This document shows, piece by piece, positions 3,699-16,539 of a stretch of DNA of 64,000 nt (positions are counted from its first letter, which is position 1; the number at the start of each line of letters is the position of its first letter). Under the pieces are notes generated by a model that was given only the letters and a program-made list of their open reading frames with translations, ran no database searches and was not told where the DNA came from. Source of the stretch: Psychromarinibacter sediminicola (GTDB lineage: Bacteria; Pseudomonadota; Alphaproteobacteria; Rhodobacterales; Rhodobacteraceae); contig NZ_JARGYC010000015.1 in assembly GCF_029168335.1 (NCBI RefSeq), forward strand, positions 1 through 64,000, given 5' to 3'. Both the position numbers and the translations under genes were made by a program.

Positions 3699-3893
3699 TC
3701 AGTAGGTCGTCTTCACATCCTGCGAGGACAGGTGCGAGCCGATGGTCTCGCCGTAGTCGTTGGTGGCGCCGCCGACGGTGGTCAGCACGGCGATGCCGAG
3801 GCCGACGATGGCAGCGGTCAGCACGACCCAGTCGACGGTCACGGCGCCGTCTTCGTCACGCTTGAAGCGGTTGATCAGGTTGAACAGTTTCAT
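3699..3893 (-). CDS. Flp-family type IVb pilin-like protein
   Basis: A 64-residue protein with a short charged N-terminus ([16 protein letters not shown]) followed by [20 protein letters not shown], a single hydrophobic helix of the Flp/Fap pilin type. The glycine before the helix fits the prepilin peptidase site, although the usual Glu5 is replaced by an Asp in VDW. Flp pilins form adhesive fibres exported by the Tad system, but no tad gene is in the window, so this is an orphan pilin gene. A GGAGAGAG sequence precedes the ATG. It is divergent from the DUF1036 pair. Confidence 0.8.
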
Positions 3894-4145: not shown

Positions 4146-5762
4146 ATGACCGTTTTCAGACAGATCATTCTGGCGTTCGCCTTTACCACCGCGGCCGGCA
4201 CCGCCCAGGCGGCCCTGCAATTCTGCAACGAGACCGATGACATACAAAGCGTCGCCATCGGCTATCAGGGGGCCAGCGCCTGGACCTCCGAGGGGTGGTG
4301 GAACATCGACCCGGGGGCCTGCGCCACCGTGGTCGGCGGCGACCTGACCAAGCGCTATTACTATTACCGCTCCGAGGTGAACGGCGGCGACTTCCCGGGC
4401 GAGGGCTACATGTTCTGCACCACGCCGGAGGAATTCGAGATCGTCGGCGACACCGACTGCGCCAGCCGCGGCTATGACAGCGAATCCTTCCGCGAGATCG
4501 ACACCGGCGAGACCGCGACCGACTTCACCTTCACCCTGACCGCCGAGACGACCTCGCCGCCCAAGATCGGCGAGGGTCCGGCGAACGACACCCCCGCGAC
4601 CGACGAGACCGGCCTGCGCATCTGCAACTCCACCGGCGAGATCCAGAGCGTCTCGATCGGCTACGAGGGCGACGAGGGGTTCCTTTCGGAAGGCTGGTGG
4701 AACATCGACCCCGACGACTGCGCCAAGGTGCTCGCCGGCGAATTGCAGCGCCGCTACTACTATTACCGCGCCGAGGTCGAGGCCGGCCCGTTCGAGGGCG
4801 AGGGCTACATGTTCTGCACCTCGCCCGAGGTCTACACGATCGTCGGCGACAGCGATTGCGAAAGCCGCGGCTACGATACCGAGAGCTTCTCCGAGATCGA
4901 CACCGGGCCCACCGCGCGCGGCTACACCTTCTACATCACCGCCGACGGGGCCGCGCCGCCGCCGCAGCCCGACGAGACCCCGCCGGCGCCCACCGGCGAG
5001 GGCGCCGGGCTGGAGGTCTGCAACGATACCGGCGAGGTGCAGAGCGTCACCATCGGCTATGAAGGCGCCGAGGACTGGACGTCCGAAGGCTGGTGGAATA
5101 TCGACCCGGGCGACTGCGCGATGCCGGCGCTCGACGGCGTCAACCGGCGCTACATCTACTATCGCGCCGAGATCGACGGCGGGCCGTTCGACGGGCAGAA
5201 CTACTTCTTCTGCACCACGCCCGAGGCCTTCGTGATCGTCGGCGACAGCGAATGCGAGGCGCGCGGCTACGATCGCGAGGAATATGCCGAGGTCGATACC
5301 GGCGGCACCACCGGCCTGTTCACCCTGACGCTCGTCGACCCTGCGGGGACGGACGGGCCGCCCTCGCCCGAGGACGACCGCGATCCGTTCCCCGACGGGC
5401 CGAAACCGGACGACACGCCCGGCGAGGTGGTCGAAGAGAGTGTCCCGGAGGTCGACGGGCCGGAGGAACCCAGCTTCGACTTCGGCCTGCCCGATGAGGA
5501 GCCGGCCGAGGAGCCCGCCGAGGAGACCGAGTTGCCGGCCGAAGACCCCGACGCCGGACCGGGCGAGGCACCGGTCGAAGAGCCCATGGAGCCGGTCGAA
5601 GAGCCCATGGAATCAGTCGAGGAGCCGATGGAACCGGTTGAGGAGCCGATGGAGGAGCCCGACGAGGAGCTCGACTTCGATCTCGACCTGGACATGGACG
5701 AAATGCCGGCCGAGGACGACGACGAGCGCCGGATCCGTCGCGGCAGTACGCGCGGGAGCTGA
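4146..5762 (+). CDS. secreted protein with three tandem DUF1036 domains and an acidic repeat tail
   Basis: A 538-residue protein. Residues 1-22 are a signal peptide ending AQA. Three DUF1036 domains follow (about 24-133, 157-265, 288-397), each with the signature SEGWWNIDP, RY(Y/I)YYR, F/YMFCT and RGYD. Each holds four cysteines with identical spacing of 32, 32 and 14 residues (27/59/91/105, 160/192/224/238, 292/324/356/370), suggesting two disulfides per domain outside the cytoplasm. The last 130 residues are Pro/Glu/Asp-rich, with repeats of VEEPMEP followed by an Asp-rich run. Start ATG 4146 is preceded by GGAGGAG. The function of DUF1036 is unknown to me. It is 4 bases upstream of a second DUF1036 gene. 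Confidence 0.9.
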   Translation: MTVFRQIILAFAFTTAAGTAQAALQFCNETDDIQSVAIGYQGASAWTSEGWWNIDPGACATVVGGDLTKRYYYYRSEVNGGDFPGEGYMFCTTPEEFEIVGDTDCASRGYDSESFREIDTGETATDFTFTLTAETTSPPKIGEGPANDTPATDETGLRICNSTGEIQSVSIGYEGDEGFLSEGWWNIDPDDCAKVLAGELQRRYYYYRAEVEAGPFEGEGYMFCTSPEVYTIVGDSDCESRGYDTESFSEIDTGPTARGYTFYITADGAAPPPQPDETPPAPTGEGAGLEVCNDTGEVQSVTIGYEGAEDWTSEGWWNIDPGDCAMPALDGVNRRYIYYRAEIDGGPFDGQNYFFCTTPEAFVIVGDSECEARGYDREEYAEVDTGGTTGLFTLTLVDPAGTDGPPSPEDDRDPFPDGPKPDDTPGEVVEESVPEVDGPEEPSFDFGLPDEEPAEEPAEETELPAEDPDAGPGEAPVEEPMEPVEEPMESVEEPMEPVEEPMEEPDEELDFDLDLDMDEMPAEDDDERRIRRGSTRGS

Positions 5763-5766
5763 GGCG

Positions 5767-6969
5767 ATGCGGAACGCTATTCTGCGCACGCTCGCGGCAG
5801 GGGCGCTCTGGGCCGCTATGGCCGGGGGCGCCCAGGCCGGGCTGGACGTCTGCAACGACACCGATGTCGTCCAGACCGTCGCCATCGGCTTCAAGGGCGA
5901 GCGCGACTGGACCTCGGAAGGGTGGTGGAACATCGACCCGGGCGATTGCGCCCGCGTCCTGGGCGGCGACCTGACGCAACGCTACTATTACTACTATGCG
6001 GAGTCGGTGAACGAGAACTTCCAGGGGCAGGACTACTTCTTCTGCGCCTCCAACGAGGTGTTCTCGATCGTCGGCGACACCTCCTGCGAGCAGCGCGGTT
6101 ACGAGACCCTGTCGATGCGCGAGATCGACACCGGGGAAACCGCGCGCGAGTTCACGCTGACGCTGGTGGACGACGGCGGCAAGCCCACGGGCGGCGACAA
6201 GATCGCGCCGAAGCTGGAAGACGGCGACAATCCCGACAACACGCCGGGCGAGACGATCACCTCCACCGATACCGACACGTCCGGCCCCGGCGGCCCCGGC
6301 AGCGGCGAAGAGGTGAACGAGGTCGTGCAGGACACCACCGTGGTCCCGCCCGAGGACGTGCCGATGTCGGTCTCGATGGAGGATCTGAAGACCGAGATCC
6401 CGCAGGGCAACCACGGCAAGCCCTTCGAGACGGTCGCGCTGTTCCAGGGCTGCGAGCTGGAGGGCGGGCGCGAGTTCTGTTCGTTCCACGCCGGCGACTG
6501 GAAGATGCGGGTGTTCTACCGCGGCCCCACGCCCGAGCGGCTGATGTACGCGCTGGAGGAACTGGCGATCAACATGCCGGTGCTGCTGAAGGGCGACATG
6601 GTCGAGACCAAGGGCAACATCGCCGCCATCGTCGTGCGCGGGGTGGAGCCGCGCCCGGGCGAGGACGAGGAGTCTCTGCTGCGGGCCTATATCCAGGGCG
6701 ACTGGATCGACCAGGGCGACGGGCGGTGGGAGATGACGGTGCTGGGCTCCGAGGTCTACTACCGGCAGGACGGCGACTTCTCGACCCACCGCTTCCTGCG
6801 GCTCGCCAAGGAATGCGACGGCTCGAACGGGCAGGGGCCGGTGCTGGTGCAGATCAACGCCGACAACAACCGCCGCACCTGCTACCGCATCGACCGCGCC
6901 GAAGGCGGCGTGCTGGAACTGACCGACGTGCGGCGCGGGCGCAGCACGACCTACCGGCGGATACAGTAG
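5767..6969 (+). CDS. secreted protein with one DUF1036 domain and a C-terminal domain of unknown function
   Basis: A 400-residue protein with a signal peptide (1-24, ending AQA). One DUF1036 domain spans about 26-135 with cysteines 29, 61, 93 and 107, the same 32/32/14 spacing as in the preceding protein. A Gly/Thr/Asp linker leads to a C-terminal region of about 200 residues beginning near DLKTEIPQGNHG, which contains further cysteines and motifs GDWKMRVFYRG, GDWIDQGDGRWEM and CYRIDRAEGG; I do not recognise this part. The ATG at 5767 sits 4 bases after the previous stop, with GAGG overlapping that stop, so the two are co-translated or at least co-transcribed. The open frame extends upstream to 5440 only as a shadow of the first gene. 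Confidence 0.88.
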   Translation: MRNAILRTLAAGALWAAMAGGAQAGLDVCNDTDVVQTVAIGFKGERDWTSEGWWNIDPGDCARVLGGDLTQRYYYYYAESVNENFQGQDYFFCASNEVFSIVGDTSCEQRGYETLSMREIDTGETAREFTLTLVDDGGKPTGGDKIAPKLEDGDNPDNTPGETITSTDTDTSGPGGPGSGEEVNEVVQDTTVVPPEDVPMSVSMEDLKTEIPQGNHGKPFETVALFQGCELEGGREFCSFHAGDWKMRVFYRGPTPERLMYALEELAINMPVLLKGDMVETKGNIAAIVVRGVEPRPGEDEESLLRAYIQGDWIDQGDGRWEMTVLGSEVYYRQDGDFSTHRFLRLAKECDGSNGQGPVLVQINADNNRRTCYRIDRAEGGVLELTDVRRGRSTTYRRIQ

Positions 6970-7251: not shown

Positions 7252-8280
7252 TCACCCGCCGCGCGGGTCCAGAAGGCGGGCCAGGACCGTGTCCTTCGTG
7301 ATCTGCCCGATCACCCGCCCGTCCTCGACCACCCCCACCGGGTTGCCCGTCGCCTTCACCCGCGCCATCACCGCGTGAATCTCGGTCTCCGGCCCCACCG
7401 TCTCCGCCGGCGCCCCGGCGGCCGGCTCCATCACGTCGCGGGCGCAGAGCACCCCCAGCGGGTTCATATGCGCCACGAAATCCGCCACGTAGTCGTTCGC
7501 CGGATGGGTGAAGATCTGCTGCGGCGTGCCCGCCTGCACGATCCGCCCGCCATCCATGATCGCGATCCGGTTGCCCAGCTTGAACGCCTCGTCCAGGTCG
7601 TGGCTGACGAAGACGATGGTCCGCTTCAGCCGCGCCTGCAGCTCCAGCAGTTCGTCCTGAAGCCGCGTCCGGATCAGCGGGTCCAGCGCCGAGTAGGGCT
7701 CGTCCATCAGCAAGACCGGCGCCTCCGTCGCGAAGGCGCGGGCCAGCCCGACCCGCTGCTGCATGCCCCCCGACAGCTCGCCCACCTTCCGGTCGGCCCA
7801 GTCCGACAGGCCCACCAGCTCCAGCTGCCGCTCCACCTGCGCGCGCCGCTCGACCCGCGACAGCCCGCCGATCTCCAGCCCAAGCCCGACATTCTCGCGC
7901 ACCGTCCGCCAGGGCAGCAGCCCGAAGGCCTGGAACACCATCGAGATGTGCTTCAGCCGCAGCTCGCGCAGCAGCTTCGCCGGCGCCTGCGTGACGCTGA
8001 CCTCGCGGCCGCCGTAGCGGACCGAGACCACGCCCCGCACCACCGGGTTCAGCCCGTTGACGGCGCGCAGGAGCGTCGACTTGCCGGAGCCCGACAGCCC
8101 CATCAGCACCAGGATCTCGCCCTCGGCGACCTCCAGCGAGCAATCGTGGACCCCCAGGACCTGGCCCGTCGCCTCCTGGATCTCTTCCCGCGACTGCCCG
8201 GCATCCATCAGCGGCAGCGCCTGCTGCGGCGTGTCGCCGAAGACGATGGAAACCCGGTCGAACCGAACCGCGACGCTCAT
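7252..8280 (-). CDS. choV: choline ABC transporter ATP-binding protein ChoV
   Basis: A 342-residue ATPase of the ProV/OpuAA type that powers choline/betaine import. Visible motifs: Walker [10 protein letters not shown], signature [14 protein letters not shown], Walker B VLLMDEP and the H-loop VSHDLDEA. A C-terminal region with a CBS-like end (RDVMEP... GVVEDGRVIGQITKD) follows the nucleotide-binding domain. The ATG at 8280 overlaps the stop of choW by 4 bases (ATGA), so translation is coupled. A repeat element starts 8 bases after its stop. Confidence 0.9.
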   Translation of the reverse strand: MSVAVRFDRVSIVFGDTPQQALPLMDAGQSREEIQEATGQVLGVHDCSLEVAEGEILVLMGLSGSGKSTLLRAVNGLNPVVRGVVSVRYGGREVSVTQAPAKLLRELRLKHISMVFQAFGLLPWRTVRENVGLGLEIGGLSRVERRAQVERQLELVGLSDWADRKVGELSGGMQQRVGLARAFATEAPVLLMDEPYSALDPLIRTRLQDELLELQARLKRTIVFVSHDLDEAFKLGNRIAIMDGGRIVQAGTPQQIFTHPANDYVADFVAHMNPLGVLCARDVMEPAAGAPAETVGPETEIHAVMARVKATGNPVGVVEDGRVIGQITKDTVLARLLDPRGG

Positions 8281-9350: not shown

Positions 9351-10142
9351 ATGCACTCCAGACGTACATTCCTGACCCGCGGCGCCGCCTGCGCCGGTGC
9401 CATCACCGTGCTGCCGTATCACGCGCTCGCGGCGGCCCATGCCAGCAACACGTTCCCGACCGACGGCGGCGAGATCGTGGTTCACCCGGTGGAGCATGCC
9501 TCGGTCGTGTTCGAGACGCCGGCCGGCACGATCTATGCCGACCCGGTGGGTGATCCGGGCCGCTATGCGGATTTCCCGGAGCCCGACCTGATCCTCGTCA
9601 CCCACGAGCACGGCGACCACTACAATGCCGACACGCTCTCCGCCCTGGCGGGCGAGGACACGCCGATCCTCACCAACCCGGCGGTCTACGACATGCTGCC
9701 CGAGGCGCTGAAGGCCCGGGCCAGCCGGATCGCCAACGGCGAGTCGACGGAGCTGGCCGGCGTCCCGATCGAGGCGATCCCGGCCTACAACCTCACCGAG
9801 GGGCGGCTGAACTTTCACCCCGAGGGGCGCGACAACGGCTATATCCTGTCCATCGACGGGATGCGCGTCTACATCTCTGGCGACACCGAGGGCACGCCCG
9901 AGATGCGCGCGCTGGAGGATATCGACATCGCTTTCGTGTCGATGAACCTGCCCTTCACCATGGCGGCGGAGCAGGCGGCGGACGCCGTGGCCGAGTTCGC
10001 GCCGACCTATGTCTACCCGTACCACTATCGCGGCCGCGACGGCGGCACGCAGGATCCGGAAGAATTCGCGCGGCTGCTGTCCGAGGCGGGCGCGGAGACC
10101 GAGGTGAAGCTGCACGACTGGTACAACGGCAACCTCGGCTGA
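9351..10142 (+). CDS. Tat-exported metallo-beta-lactamase-fold hydrolase
   Basis: A 263-residue protein. Residues 1-30 carry a twin-arginine signal (SRRTFLTRG, then a hydrophobic stretch and an Ala-rich cleavage region), so it should fold in the cytoplasm and act in the periplasm. The body shows the MBL metal motif THEHGDHYN and a later SGDTEGTPE aspartate, as in UlaG-like hydrolases. Substrate unknown. GGGAGAG precedes the ATG. It sits between choX and choW, on the opposite strand to both, converging on choX and diverging from choW. A link to quaternary amine metabolism is inferred only from position. Confidence 0.85.
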   Translation: MHSRRTFLTRGAACAGAITVLPYHALAAAHASNTFPTDGGEIVVHPVEHASVVFETPAGTIYADPVGDPGRYADFPEPDLILVTHEHGDHYNADTLSALAGEDTPILTNPAVYDMLPEALKARASRIANGESTELAGVPIEAIPAYNLTEGRLNFHPEGRDNGYILSIDGMRVYISGDTEGTPEMRALEDIDIAFVSMNLPFTMAAEQAADAVAEFAPTYVYPYHYRGRDGGTQDPEEFARLLSEAGAETEVKLHDWYNGNLG

Positions 10143-10212: not shown

Positions 10213-11142
10213 TTACATCAGGCCCAGCGCGGCCTTCACCGCCTCCAGCCCGTTGCCGCCGTCCTTCGTCTCGACGCCGTCGAGCCAGGTGTCCAGCACC
10301 TCCGGGTTCTCCTTCAGCCACGCGGTGGCGGCCTCTTCCGGGTCGGTCCCGTCGTTCAGGATCGCGCCCATGATCTCGTTTTCCATGGCCAGCGTGAACT
10401 CCAGGTTCTGCAGGAACGTGCCCACGTTCGGGCATTCCTCGACGAAGCCGGCCGAGGTGTTGGTATAGACCGTCGCGCCGCCCAGGTTCGGCCCGAAGTA
10501 ATCGTCGCCGCCGGTCAGGTAGGACATCTCGTAGTTGGCGTTCATCGGGTGCGGCTCCCACCCCAGGAACACGACCGGCTCGTCGCGGCGGATCGACCGC
10601 TCGACCTGCGCCAGCATCCCCTGTTCCGAGCTTTCCGCCACCTCGAAGCCTTCCAGGCCAAAGGCGTTTTCGTCGATCATCGACTGGATCAGGCGGTTGC
10701 CGTCGTTGCCCGGCTCGATCCCGTAGATCGTCTCGTCCAGCGCCTCGGCATGTTCGGCGATGTCCGAGAAGTCCGCGATCCCGAGGTCGGCCGCGACCTT
10801 GTTGACCGCCAGCGTGTATTTCGCGCCTTCGAGGTTGGCGCGCACCGTGTCGACGGTCCCGTCCTCGCGGTAGGGGGCGATGTCGGCCTCCATCGTGGGC
10901 ATCCAGTTGCCCAGGAACACGTCCACGTCGCCCTCGGCCAGCGAGGTGTAGGTGACCGGCACCGACAGGACCTTCACGTCCGTTTCGTAGCCCAGCGCGT
11001 CCAGCACCACGGTGGTCGCCGCGGTGGTCGAGGTGATGTCGGTCCAGCCCACGTCCGAGAACACGATCGTGTCGCAATCGGCCAGCGCGGGCCCCGCCAC
11101 GGCCGCCAGTGCCAGCGCGGATAGAGTTGTCTTGAGGCTCAT
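10213..11142 (-). CDS. choX: choline-binding periplasmic protein ChoX
   Basis: A 309-residue solute-binding protein with a signal peptide (1-21, ending GPALA). It has the aromatic-cage features expected for choline binding: SDVGWTDI near the mature N-terminus, LGNWMP, and FLGWEPHPMN. It would deliver choline (and acetylcholine or betaine less well) to ChoW/ChoV. The ATG at 11142 follows AGGGAGAC. It is divergent from betI, sharing a short region with a BetI-like palindrome. Unlike the usual choXWV operon, an opposite-strand gene separates it from choWV. Confidence 0.92.
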   Translation of the reverse strand: MSLKTTLSALALAAVAGPALADCDTIVFSDVGWTDITSTTAATTVVLDALGYETDVKVLSVPVTYTSLAEGDVDVFLGNWMPTMEADIAPYREDGTVDTVRANLEGAKYTLAVNKVAADLGIADFSDIAEHAEALDETIYGIEPGNDGNRLIQSMIDENAFGLEGFEVAESSEQGMLAQVERSIRRDEPVVFLGWEPHPMNANYEMSYLTGGDDYFGPNLGGATVYTNTSAGFVEECPNVGTFLQNLEFTLAMENEIMGAILNDGTDPEEAATAWLKENPEVLDTWLDGVETKDGGNGLEAVKAALGLM

Positions 11143-11164
11143 CGTCGTCTCCCTGTTTTTCTTG

Positions 11165-11178
11165 ATTGACGAGTCAAT
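11165..11178. promoter_or_regulatory. BetI-type operator
   Basis: Perfect palindrome ATTGAC-GA-GTCAAT inside TTGATTGACGAGTCAATTA, resembling the E. coli BetI site as I remember it. It lies 23 bases from the choX ATG and 49 bases from the betI ATG, so one site could repress both directions and be released by choline. Confidence 0.7.
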
Positions 11179-11226
11179 TAGTATCCGGCAGCTTCGGCGC
11201 CGTATTCCCCCGAAGGAGACCGGACC

Positions 11227-11808
11227 ATGCCGAAACTCGGAATGGAGCCTATCAGGCGCGCGGCGCTGGTGAAAGCGACCATCGACGAGGTGGCCGCCGC
11301 CGGCACGCTCGACGTGACCGTGAACCGCATCGCCCGCCGGGCGGGCGTGTCCTCGGCCCTGGCGCATCACTATTTCGGCGCGAAGGAGGATCTGTTCCTC
11401 GCCGCCATGCGCCACATCCTGACGCTTTACGGGCAGGGGGTGCGCTCGGCGCTGGCCGGCTCCACGACGCCGCGCCAGCGGCTGGAGGCGATCGTCCGCG
11501 CCAGCTTCGAGGCCGAGCAGTTCAGCGGCCACGTGGTGAACGCCTGGCTGAACTTCTACGTCGCCGCCCAGAAATCGGTGCCGGCGCAGCGGCTCTTGAC
11601 CATCTATCAGCGGCGGCTGCGCGCCAACCTCGTCCACGACCTGCGCCCGCTGGTGGGCGACCGCGCCGCCGTCGCGGCCGAGACGGTCGCGGCGCTGATC
11701 GACGGGCTCTACATCCGCGCCGCCCTGAACCCCGGCGCGACCGATCCCCGCGGCGCCGCCGATCAGGTGCTGCGCATGATGGACCTGATGATCGCCGAGG
11801 TGACATGA
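11227..11808 (+). CDS. betI: choline-responsive TetR-family repressor BetI
   Basis: A 193-residue TetR-family regulator with an N-terminal helix-turn-helix (about 28-50: VNRIARRAGVSSALAHHYFGAKEDL) and the conserved start GMEPIRRAALVKATI of BetI proteins. It should repress the bet genes and choX when choline is absent. GGAGA precedes the ATG. It is first in the betI-betC-betB run; its stop overlaps the betC start (ATGA). Confidence 0.93.
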   Translation: MPKLGMEPIRRAALVKATIDEVAAAGTLDVTVNRIARRAGVSSALAHHYFGAKEDLFLAAMRHILTLYGQGVRSALAGSTTPRQRLEAIVRASFEAEQFSGHVVNAWLNFYVAAQKSVPAQRLLTIYQRRLRANLVHDLRPLVGDRAAVAAETVAALIDGLYIRAALNPGATDPRGAADQVLRMMDLMIAEVT

Positions 11809-13313
11809 CCCGCCCCAACATCCTGATCCTGATGGTGGACCAGCTGAACGGCACGCTGTTCCCCGACGGCCCCGCCGACTGGCTGCACACGCCGAACCTG
11901 AGGCGGCTGGCCGAGCGCTCGGTGCGCTTCGCCAACGCCTATACCGGCTCGCCGCTCTGCGCGCCGGGGCGGGCGTCGTTCATGTCGGGGCAGTTGCCGT
12001 ATCGCACCGAGGTCTACGACAACGCGGCCGAGTTCCGGTCCGACATCCCGACCTACGCCCACCACCTGCGCCGCGCGGGCTATCGCACCTGCCTGTCCGG
12101 CAAGATGCATTTCGTCGGCCCCGACCAGCTCCACGGTTTCGAGGAGCGGCTGACGACCGACATCTACCCGGCCGATTTCGGCTGGACCCCCGATTACCGC
12201 AAGCCGGGCGAGCGGATCGACTGGTGGTATCACAACATGGGCTCGGTGACGGGCGCCGGGGTGGCCGAGATCTCCAACCAGATGGAGTACGACGACGATG
12301 TCGCCTTCCAGGCGCAGCAGTGGCTCTACGATGCCGCCCGCGGGATAGACGACCGCCCGTGGTGCCTGACCGCCAGCTTCACCCACCCGCACGATCCTTA
12401 CGTCGCGCGGCGCCGGTTCTGGGATCTCTACGAGGATTGCGCGCATCTCGCCCCGGTCGAGGCCGCCTATGCCTACGAGGATCACGACCCGCATTCGCAG
12501 CGCATCTTCGACGCCAACGACTGGCGCAGCTTCGACATCACCGAGACCGACATCGCCCGGTCGCGCCGCGCCTACTTTGCCAACATCTCCTATCTCGACG
12601 ACAAGATCGGCCAGATCCTTCAGGTGCTGGAGGACACGCGGCAGGAGGCGATCGTCCTCTTCGTCTCCGACCACGGCGACATGCTGGGCGAGAAGGGGCT
12701 GTGGTTCAAGATGAGCTTCTACGAGGGCTCGGCGCGGGTGCCGATGATGGTCTCTGCCCCGGGGCTTGAGCCCGGCACCGTCACCGCGCCGGTCTCCACG
12801 ATGGACGTCTGCCCGACCCTGTGCAACCTGGCCGATGTCGACATGACCGAGGTGCTGCCCTGGACCGACGGCGAAAGCCTCGTGCCCATCGCCGAAGGGG
12901 TGAGCCGCAAGACCCCGGTCCGCATGGAATACGCGGCCGAGGCCAGCTATTCCCCGCTGGCCAGCCTGCGCGAGGGGCGCTGGAAACTGAACATCTGCAA
13001 GCTCGATCCGGACCAGCTGTTCGACCTGGAGGCCGATCCGCAGGAAAGGACCAACCTCGCCGATAGTTCGGATCATGCAAGCATTCTCGCAAGTCTGCGC
13101 AAAAAGGCCGACGAATTGTGGGATTTGGATAAGTTCGATGCAGACGTGCGCGCCAGTCAGGCGCGCCGCTGGGTGGTCTACGAGGCGCTGCGCCAGGGCG
13201 GCTACTACCCGTGGGACTACCAGCCCCTGCGCGACGCCTCCGAGCGCTACATGCGCAACCATATGGACCTGAACGTGCTGGAAGAAAACAAGCGCTTCCC
13301 GAGGGGAGAATGA
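11805..13313 (+). CDS. betC: choline sulfatase BetC
   Basis: A 502-residue type I sulfatase that hydrolyses choline-O-sulfate to choline and sulfate. The formylglycine motif is [10 protein letters not shown] with Cys52, and the N-terminal MVDQLNG supplies the metal aspartate Asp12; the second metal pair appears in [14 protein letters not shown]. Length and C-terminus ([21 protein letters not shown]) fit choline sulfatases. The ATG overlaps the betI stop by 4 bases; the open frame extending further upstream is a shadow of betI. betB starts 2 bases after its stop. Confidence 0.93.
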
Positions 13314-13314
13314 C

Positions 13315-14769
13315 ATGCGCGACGTGACCCCGAGGGGCAGCCACTACATCGCCGGCGCCTATGCCGAGGACGCGGGCGGCGCGCCGATCGACGTGATCTA
13401 CCCCGCCACCGGCGAGACGGTCGCGCAGGTCCATGCCGCCACGCCCGAGATCGTGGACAAGGCGCTCGCCGCCGCCGACGCCGCCCGCCGCGACTGGGCC
13501 GCGATGCCCGGCGTCGAACGCGGCCGGATCCTGCGCCGCGCCGCCGACCTGCTGCGCGAGCGCAACCGCGACCTGTCCGAGATCGAGACCATCGACACCG
13601 GCAAGCCGCTGCAGGAAACGCTGGTGGCCGACGCGGCCTCGGCGGCCGATGCGCTGGAATGGTTCGGCGGGCTGGCCGCCACCATCCGCGGCGAGCACGT
13701 GCAGCTCGGCGGCGACTGGGCCTATACCATCCGCGAGCCGCTGGGCGTCTGCGTCGGCATCGGCGCCTGGAACTACCCCACCCAGATCGCCGCGTGGAAG
13801 GCCGCCCCGGCGCTCGCCTGCGGCAACACCATGGTCTTCAAGCCGTCCGAGGAAACCCCGCTCTGCGCGCTGAAACTCGCGGAAATCCTCACCGAGGCCG
13901 GCGCGCCGCCTGGCGTGTTCAACGTCGTCCAGGGGCGGGGCGAGGTCGGCGCGTCGCTCGTCACCGACCCCCGCGTCGCCAAGGTGTCGCTGACCGGCTC
14001 GGTGCCCACGGGGCAGAAGGTCTATGCCGCCGCTGCCGAAGGCATCCGCCACGTCACGATGGAGCTGGGCGGCAAGTCCCCCATGCTGGTCTTCGCCGAC
14101 GCCGACATCGAAGCCGCCGTCGGCGGAGCGATCCTCGGCAACTTCTATTCCTCGGGCCAGATCTGCTCGAACGGCACCCGCGTCTTCGTGCAGAAGGGCA
14201 TCAAGGACCGCTTCCTCGCCCGCCTGACCGAACGCCTCCAGGGTATCGTAATGGGCGACCCGCTGAACGAGGCCACCAATTTCGGCCCGCTGGTCAGCGC
14301 GGCGCAGCTCGACAAGGTCATGGGCTACATCGCGCAGGGCAAGGCCGAGGGCGCCCGCCTCGTCGCCGGCGGTGCCCGCGTGAACCGCCCGGGATGGTTC
14401 GTGGAACCCACCGTCTTCGCCGACGTCACCGACGACATGACCATCGCGCGCGACGAGATCTTCGGCCCCGTCGCCGCGGTGCTCGACTTCGAGACCGAGG
14501 ACGAGGCGCTGGCCCGCGCCAACGCCACCCCCTACGGCCTGTCCGCCGGCGTCTTCACCCGCGACATCGACCGCGCCCACCGCGTCGCCGGCGGCTTCGA
14601 GGCCGGCACCTGCTGGATCAACACCTACAACCTGACGCCCGTCGAGGTCGGCTTCGGCGGCTCGAAGCTCTCCGGGGTCGGCCGCGAGAACGGGCTGGCC
14701 GCGATCGAACATTTCTCGCAACTCAAGACCGTTTACGTGGGCACCGGCCCCGTGGACGCACCCTATTAG
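13315..14769 (+). CDS. betB: betaine-aldehyde dehydrogenase BetB
   Basis: A 484-residue NAD(P)-dependent aldehyde dehydrogenase that oxidises betaine aldehyde to glycine betaine. Catalytic residues are visible: Glu250 in MELGGKSP and Cys284 in [11 protein letters not shown]; the cofactor region includes GIGAWNYP and [15 protein letters not shown] lies 7 bases before the ATG. It follows betC almost without a gap and is separated from betA by 120 bases containing repeat copy C. Confidence 0.93.
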
Positions 14770-14889: not shown

Positions 14890-16539
14890 ATGGAAGCCGA
14901 TTTCGTCATCGTCGGCGCCGGCTCGGCCGGCTGCGCGCTGGCCTACCGGCTGTCCGATGCCGGCGCCTCGGTGCTGGTGATCGAGCATGGCGGCACCGAT
15001 GCCGGCCCGTTCATCAAGATGCCCGGCGCCCTCAGCTACCCGATGAACATGGCGCGCTATGACTGGGGCTACTGGTCCGAGCCCGAGCCGCATCTCGGCA
15101 ATCGCCGTCTCGCCTGTCCGCGCGGCAAGGTGATCGGCGGGTCGTCCTCGATCAACGGCATGGTCTATGTGCGCGGTCACGCCCGCGACTTCGACAGCTG
15201 GGCCGGGATGGGCGCCGACGGCTGGGCCTATGCCGACGTGCTGCCCTACTTCAAGCGGATGGAGCACTGGCACGGCGACGGCCCGTCGCCCTGGCGCGGC
15301 ACCGACGGCCCGCTGCATGTCACGGTGGGGCAGGGCGGAAACCCCCTGAACCGCGCCTTCATCGAGGCCGGGCGGCAGGCGGGCTACCCGGTGACCGAGG
15401 ATTACAACGGCCATCAGCAGGAAGGCTTCGGCGCCATGGAGGCGACGATCTGGCAGGGCCGCCGCTGGTCCGCCGCCGAGGCTTACCTGCGCCCGGCGCT
15501 GCAGCGGCCGAACTGCGAGCTGATCCGCGGGCTGGTCACCCGGGTCGTCATCGAGGAGGGCCGCGCGACCGGGGTGGAGTACAAGCGTGGCGGAGCCACG
15601 CAGGTCGTCCGCGCCCGGCGCGAGGTGATCCTCGCCGCCTCGTCGATCAACTCGCCCAAGCTGCTGATGCTCTCGGGGATCGGCCCGGCGGCCGAGCTGG
15701 CGCGGCACGGCATCCCACTGGCCGCCGACCGGCCCGGGGTTGGACAGAACCTGCAGGATCACCTGGAAATCTACATGCAGATGCGGTCGAAACGGCCCGT
15801 ATCGCTCTATTCGTGGTGGAACCCGCTGGGCAAGGCGCTGGCCGGCGCGCAGTGGCTTTTCGCCCGCAAGGGGCCCGGCGCGTCGAACCAGTTCGAGGCC
15901 TGCGGCTTCATCCGCTCCGCCGCCGGCGTGGAATATCCCGACATCCAGTACCACTTCATGCCGCTCGCCGTGCGCTATGACGGGCATGCGGCGGTGCGCG
16001 GGCACGGCTTCCAGGCGCATGTCGGGCCGATGCGGTCGAAGTCGCGCGGCAGCGTCACCCTGCGCTCCGCCGACCCGGCGGCGGCGCCCGTCATCCGGTT
16101 CAACTACATGAGCCACCACGACGACTGGCGCGACTTCCGCACCTGCCTGCGGCTGACCCGCGAGATCTTCGCCCAGCCCGCCTTCGAACCCTATGCCGGC
16201 GACGAGATCCTCCCCGGCGCCGAGGTGCAGGACGACGCCGGCCTCGACGCCGCGATCCGCGAGCATGTGGAAAGCGCCTATCACCCCTGCGGCACCGCCC
16301 GGATGGGGCGGCGGGACGACCCCGAGGCGGTGGTCGACCCCGAGGCGCGGGTGATCGGCGTCGACGGGCTGCGCGTGGCCGACAGCTCGATCTTCCCGCA
16401 GATCACCAACGGCAACACCAACGCGCCCTCGATCCTGGTGGGCGAGAAGGTGGCCGACCACGTGCTGGGCCGCCCGCCGCTGCCCGCGGCGAACATGACC
16501 CCCTGGATCCACCCGGACTGGCGCACCGCGCAGCGCTGA
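14890..16539 (+). CDS. betA: choline dehydrogenase BetA
   Basis: A 549-residue GMC-family flavoenzyme that oxidises choline to betaine aldehyde at the membrane. The FAD-binding motif [14 protein letters not shown] is at the N-terminus, followed by the GMC signature [18 protein letters not shown] and the C-terminal catalytic region [12 protein letters not shown] with His465, then NGNTNAPSI. The start MEADFVIVG has a weak GCAAGG site. It completes the route choline sulfate to choline to betaine aldehyde to glycine betaine with BetC and BetB. Confidence 0.94.

Follow-up and report, generated by a model that had tools for sequence, protein, structure and literature searches.

What might two adjacent genes for exported DUF1036 proteins do in Psychromarinibacter sediminicola, and does their position bear on the answer? 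The DUF1036 domain (PF06282) is widespread in Alphaproteobacteria and has almost no published function; a literature search was nearly silent, returning a single paper that names it, for a Candidatus Liberibacter asiaticus hub protein listed as reported essential in L. crescens (PMC10687234). The two genes, here named P1 and P2, lie on the same strand (+), separated by four bases, in a 64,000-nt stretch of contig NZ_JARGYC010000015.1 (hereafter, the window). Translation showed the coordinates and the four-base gap given in the original prediction to be exact.

4146-5762 (+): P1, exported protein (predicted from its signal peptide), 538 aa; PF06282 in three stretches, 300 bits, E 1.3e-90 (Pfam)
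4146-4211 (+): putative Sec signal peptide of P1, 22 aa, ending in GTAQA↓A, assigned by eye; helix at residues 2-14 in the AlphaFold2 model
4203-4541 (+): DUF1036 domain 1 of P1, PF06282, 114.7 bits; overlaps the end of the signal peptide
4608-4922 (+): DUF1036 domain 2 of P1, PF06282, 101 bits
5004-5315 (+): DUF1036 domain 3 of P1, PF06282, 96.6 bits
5767-6969 (+): P2, exported protein (predicted from its signal peptide), 400 aa; one PF06282, 110 bits, E 1.5e-31 (Pfam)
5767-5838 (+): putative Sec signal peptide of P2, 24 aa, ending in GGAQA↓G, assigned by eye; helix at residues 2-18 in the AlphaFold2 model
5830-6162 (+): DUF1036 domain of P2, PF06282, 113.1 bits

A whole-genome PF06282 search returned four domains only, all of them in P1 and P2, at 97-115 bits each, full-length and well over the gathering score of 23 bits; this confirms the three domains read in the first protein and the one in the second. 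The claim that both proteins are exported agrees with the predicted Sec signal peptides. Comparisons between members of the genus for which synonymous changes were unsaturated gave dN/dS values of 0.08-0.19 for DUF1036, 0.07-0.38 for the C-terminal domains of P2 and 0.28-0.40 for the P1 tail. P1 and P2 are thus real, constrained proteins under purifying selection. Pfam matches to Rhv, cNMP_binding and ZinT were sub-threshold or scattered and were discarded. No solved homologue was found by sequence, a ubiquitin match of <5 bits per stretch being attributed to chance.

The four domains share a cysteine spacing of 32/32/14, from which it had been argued that the domain was multiplied in place. 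The same spacing was found in 95 of 132 DUF1036 domains from many genera; it is the norm of the family, and therefore provides no evidence of local multiplication. The multiplication of the P1 domains is instead supported by a tree of 131 DUF1036 domains, built from few columns and with many forks unresolved, in which the Rhodobacterales P1 domains formed one supported clade (96/87), indicating a single origin. Within it, the first and last P1 domains mostly clustered by position across genera. The P2 domains clustered with single-domain long proteins. The multiplication seen in Rhodospira/Roseospira was a separate event. In the window, a 399-nt tandem period runs through the DNA across the P1 domains. 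The last two domains of the P1 of the four-domain species of the genus (locus L041, the same as L080; L-numbers label the loci compared) were nearly identical by eye, which suggests that domain copy number is still changing.

The DUF1036 genes of relatives were taken from open frames, the loci being GC-rich. Each of the five genomes of the genus had the P1-P2 pair, with 3, 3, 4, 3 and 3 domains in P1. In the wider family, DUF1036 was found in 71 of 395 genomes, most of which had one single-domain gene. P1 and P2 were found again in Rhodobacter-like MAGs, in Candidatus Rhodobacter lobularis and in others (L060-L062, L065, L082-L087). The second gene, whose frequent absence would have counted against the original prediction, was present throughout: P2 lay directly downstream of a three- or four-domain P1 in 11 of 11 loci (the window, L080-L087, L105 and L111), with short gaps or overlaps at most of them. 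One of these loci, L081, is from Pseudoruegeria sp. HB172150. In some marine bacteria, P1 and P2 constitute a genuine and conserved pair. L063 (the same as L116) has a two-domain protein and a one-domain tailed protein, and the P2-type gene lies on another contig. DUF1036 proteins had been described as mainly single-domain and unstudied; the near silence of the literature bears out the second point, but multi-domain members are not unique to P1, since other Alphaproteobacteria commonly have proteins with two domains, and proteins with three occur in Rhodospira/Roseospira.

A mobile-element origin was rejected: there was no phage match, and the 29 plasmid records with DUF1036 matches were all below 60% identity, none covering 80% of P1. 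A DUF1036 gene was seen on a contig labelled Mesoflavibacter (Bacteroidota; L142:8001-8408, +), reflecting either a transfer or a mislabelled MAG. In one species, three similar-looking genes of ~315-340 aa lie in a row after P2 (L043:3297-6769, -), and the one tested had a Hint_2 domain.

The AlphaFold2 model of P1 showed three sandwiches and a disordered tail. Its best Foldseek match was the VAB (Vps13 adaptor-binding) domain of 7u8t (E 7e-7; next match, 6e-4), spanning several domains. Each VAB repeat carries an invariant Asn, and the repeats bind PxP motifs (PMC7999203); DUF1036 has an invariant CN, a possible counterpart. A VAB-like reading of P1 is a lead of low probability: with single domains, the Z of 6-7 was tied with that of transthyretin-like proteins and others, and no sequence-level match to VAB models was found among 17 members. 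DUF1036 also has invariant aromatic residues (GWW, a Tyr and a Phe); one may speculate that these would suit the binding of a quaternary amine.

Beyond its DUF1036 domain, P2 has ~200 residues that the original prediction had marked as unrecognised. No Pfam or NCBIfam family covers them, and they were modelled as two further domains.

6175-6366 (+): P2 linker, mostly disordered (pLDDT <50 at residues 137-190)
6409-6657 (+): P2 OB-fold domain, residues 215-297, with conserved Cys pair C229/C238 (AlphaFold2 model, structural matches, Cys columns)
6676-6966 (+): P2 small lipocalin-like barrel, residues 304-400, with conserved Cys pair C350/C372 (AlphaFold2 model, Z ~11 matches, Cys columns)

The predicted architecture is thus a beta-sandwich (DUF1036), a linker, an OB-fold and a small barrel. 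The AlphaFold2 model had a mean pLDDT of 81.6, with values >90 for most of residues 200-400; the linker was the poorly modelled part. The OB domain matched engineered OBodies, the OB domains of aspartyl-tRNA synthetases and potempin A (Z about 7-8), while the barrel matched lipocalin-like proteins of Bacteroidota and potempin E (Z ~11); folds merely missing from the structural-match lists were not counted as excluded. Each of the two domains has a Cys pair that is almost invariant among relatives, and the DUF1036, OB and barrel domains of P2 are probably all disulphide-stabilised. As modelled, the P2 C-terminus is a new, previously unnamed module composed of an OB-fold and a small lipocalin-like barrel. 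It was found in 36 of 296 genomes of the family; in a sample of 240 genomes of the class, no genome outside the family had it, although a contig scan detected it in some relatives, a few of them Rhodospirillaceae.

Both folds, lipocalin-like and OB, are widespread and in themselves show no function. The resemblance of both domains to potempins nevertheless raises the idea that P1 and P2 might be a secreted protease-inhibitor pair like those of Tannerella forsythia: potempin E (8ehc) matched the barrel with Z 11.2 (2.1 A over 83 residues) and potempin A (8b2n) matched the OB domain with Z 7.0. Other lipocalin-like proteins, however, matched the barrel equally well. Potempins are small lipoproteins whose genes lie immediately in front of that of their protease (PMC7296668), whereas neither P1 nor P2 has a lipobox Cys, their signal peptides ending in AQA↓A and AQA↓G, respectively, and no protease gene adjoins the pair, the next gene being choV. 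An inhibitor role is very unlikely.

P1 differs from P2 in what follows its DUF1036 domains.

5349-5735 (+): P1 acidic Pro/Glu tail, predicted disordered (pLDDT <50; charge and composition)
5736-5759 (+): conserved basic C-terminal end of P1, RRGSTRGS in the window (cross-genus alignment of P1 proteins)

The VEEPMEP-repeat tail of the original prediction was recovered as a 21-nt tandem repeat at 5570-5653, coding for VEEPME(P/S). This repeat is particular to the species of the window, and the P1 tails of relatives have other acidic repeats. The tails compared were Pro-rich, 63-137 residues long and had a net charge of -13 to -52 before the basic end; they were alike within the genus, and between genera their likeness was no higher than that of shuffled sequence. 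The last residues, in turn, were RRGGSRG(G) in nearly all P1 proteins, RRGSTRGS in the window and RAGGSRLR in L086. That a conserved basic motif ends an otherwise unalignable, fast-changing acidic spacer suggests a docking end. The idea that RRGGSRGG is a sorting tag common to other proteins was examined in a pattern search of eight genomes and rejected, the matches being scattered and at, or somewhat above, the level of the reversed-pattern control. One stretch outside P1, identical in two sister species (G001:C36:99046-99072 and G004:C1:3202493-3202519), would be translated as RRGGIRGG followed by a stop.

A choline/betaine island begins ~280 bp downstream of P2; like the basic end of P1 and the fold of the P2 C-terminus, it had gone unnoticed in the original prediction.

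7252-8280 (-): choV, choline ABC transporter ATPase (TIGR03415 equivalog over cut-off); convergent with P2
8277-9110 (-): choW, choline ABC transporter permease (TIGR03416 equivalog over cut-off)
10213-11139 (-): choX, choline-binding protein (TIGR03414 over cut-off)
11161-11180 (no strand assigned): putative betI box CTTGATTGACGAGTCAATTA, from a matrix scan; between choX and betI
11227-11808 (+): betI, choline-responsive repressor (TIGR03384 equivalog over cut-off)
11811-13313 (+): betC, choline-sulfatase (TIGR03417 equivalog over cut-off)
13315-14769 (+): betB, betaine-aldehyde dehydrogenase (TIGR01804 equivalog over cut-off)
14890-15999 (+): first part of betA, choline dehydrogenase; best matches to choline dehydrogenase models, below cut-off

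The betA matches fell below the cut-off because the query was a partial piece. Between choW and choX, on the opposite strand, lies a gene (9351-10142, +) whose product has a beta-lactamase fold and a Tat-like start (SRRTFL).

Genes of the cho/bet set were found within 8 kb at 26 of 48 loci with the P2-type module, compared with one of 29 DUF1036 loci without it (Fisher p 3.7e-6, a value that overstates the association since the loci are related by descent and are not independent). The one exception was the two-domain P1-type locus L116. The distance between the module and the cho/bet genes was usually 14-160 nt. Thalassovita gelatinovora (L088) is one species with a P2-type gene in this position. 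Modules standing alone, without DUF1036, also lay beside cho/bet genes (L187, L188, L190 and L191, plus L189 by genome search). At several loci, a 402-aa open frame sits between the module gene and the bet genes (L191:3477-4685, -; open frames of the same length at L049, L050, L051 and L054); the one tested had no NCBIfam match, and some of the frames are perhaps mis-called. The pair may be an exported (periplasmic or secreted) accessory of the Rhodobacterales locus that takes choline and choline-O-sulfate to the salt protectant glycine betaine. This is our best explanation, held tentatively and with somewhat less than even confidence.

Its main rival, possible if doubtful, is that P1 and P2 are general cell-envelope scaffold or stress proteins of Rhodobacterales, their position beside cho/bet being inherited synteny without functional meaning. 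LysE and EamA, which have no evident link to choline, are an equally frequent neighbour pair (30 of 48 module loci), and 22 of the 48, including four P1 loci, have no cho/bet genes within 8 kb. P2-type genes occur away from cho/bet genes, several as tandem pairs, in Maritimibacter-type genomes (L104, L108, L113 and L124), and the tandem genes of L108, L113 and L124 speak for this rival. An envelope role would agree with the two-domain relative at L010, which has a peptidoglycan-binding match (PF01471), just under the cut-off, between its domains. Regulation points the same way. The betI box footprinted in Ruegeria pomeroyi is ATTGACG*CGTCAAT (PMC12442346), and the window box agrees with it; the matrix scan found this single box in the window, before betI, and P1 has none in front of it. 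BetI regulation of P1 was therefore set aside, and co-regulation of P1-P2 with the bet genes is unsupported; what recurs is the position. Against inherited synteny, the module keeps its adjacency to cho/bet when the other flank changes (LysE/EamA, the topA side, or P1/Flp) and when DUF1036 is missing.

The other side of P1 suggested a surface adhesin or an accessory of a Flp-type pilus: a 64-aa Flp-pilin-like gene (3699-3893, -) is divergent from P1, and each of the five genomes of the genus had one or two copies there. This reading is highly improbable, as no Flp-like gene was seen beside P1-P2 in other genera and the gene had only sub-threshold Pfam matches.

Under the favoured reading, an accessory pair of the choline/betaine locus, P2 would be the older part, in which a DUF1036 beta-sandwich became joined to the OB-fold and lipocalin-like barrel. 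P1 would be an offshoot in which DUF1036 was amplified to three or four copies and extended by a long spacer, acidic and unstructured, that presents an RRGGSRGG-type end. P1 would supply several copies of a binding domain, and its basic end, or its domains, may join it to P2. Joint action is suggested by Rhodospira/Roseospira, where the parts of P1 and P2 form a single polypeptide: three DUF1036 domains followed by a P2-type OB and barrel at L114, and multiple DUF1036 domains fused to a P2-type barrel only at L126 and L119. Gene fusion is a classic sign of separate proteins working together. The pair would work outside the cytoplasm during choline/betaine handling or salt stress, possibly binding a ligand or serving as a scaffold alongside ChoXWV; we infer this functional link to osmolytes, beyond position. 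A more specific scheme, unlikely as a whole, is a two-protein periplasmic device of choline/glycine-betaine osmoadaptation, in which the aromatic-rich DUF1036 array would capture quaternary amines or a partner peptide, the RRGGSRGG end would dock on the OB/barrel of P2, and cargo would be handed to ChoXWV, or ChoXWV regulated. The original prediction had proposed an undescribed secreted system with a metal-binding or scaffold role; nothing found supports metal binding, and the choline-betaine context takes its place. The recurrent cho/bet context is the first testable one for the unstudied secreted DUF1036 proteins, and together with the unnamed OB and barrel module, the natural fusion and the conserved C-terminal end, it makes them testable in cultured Roseobacters.

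Choline catabolism is widespread in marine Roseobacters (PMC4744692), and the window holds the same bet/cho locus as that described there and in PMC12442346, with a box of the published type before betI; P1-P2 differ in having no such box. A term search of these two papers found no mention of DUF1036 or of the module gene. The lipocalin-like proteins of Bacteroidota and the T. forsythia potempins resemble the P2 C-terminal domains in predicted fold; no sequence relationship was found, and anchoring and gene context differ. The typical short DUF1036 form shares with P1 and P2 the domain, the signal peptide and the four cysteines, but it is a single-domain protein of ~140 aa, while P1 has three domains plus a tail and P2 has one plus the OB and barrel. 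In other Alphaproteobacteria (L077, L079, L141-L156), 12 of 20 loci had its gene near one interpreted as pyruvate kinase, whereas P1-P2 lie beside cho/bet. The two-domain proteins of the L010 type are, like P1, exported and have more than one DUF1036 domain. Unlike in P1, these lie on either side of a middle region, which in L010 has the weak PG_binding_1 match, and no acidic tail, RRGGSRGG end or partner gene was seen. The Rhodospira/Roseospira proteins (L114, L126 and L119) combine two or three DUF1036 domains with a P2-type barrel, and in L114 also with the OB domain, in one polypeptide rather than two.
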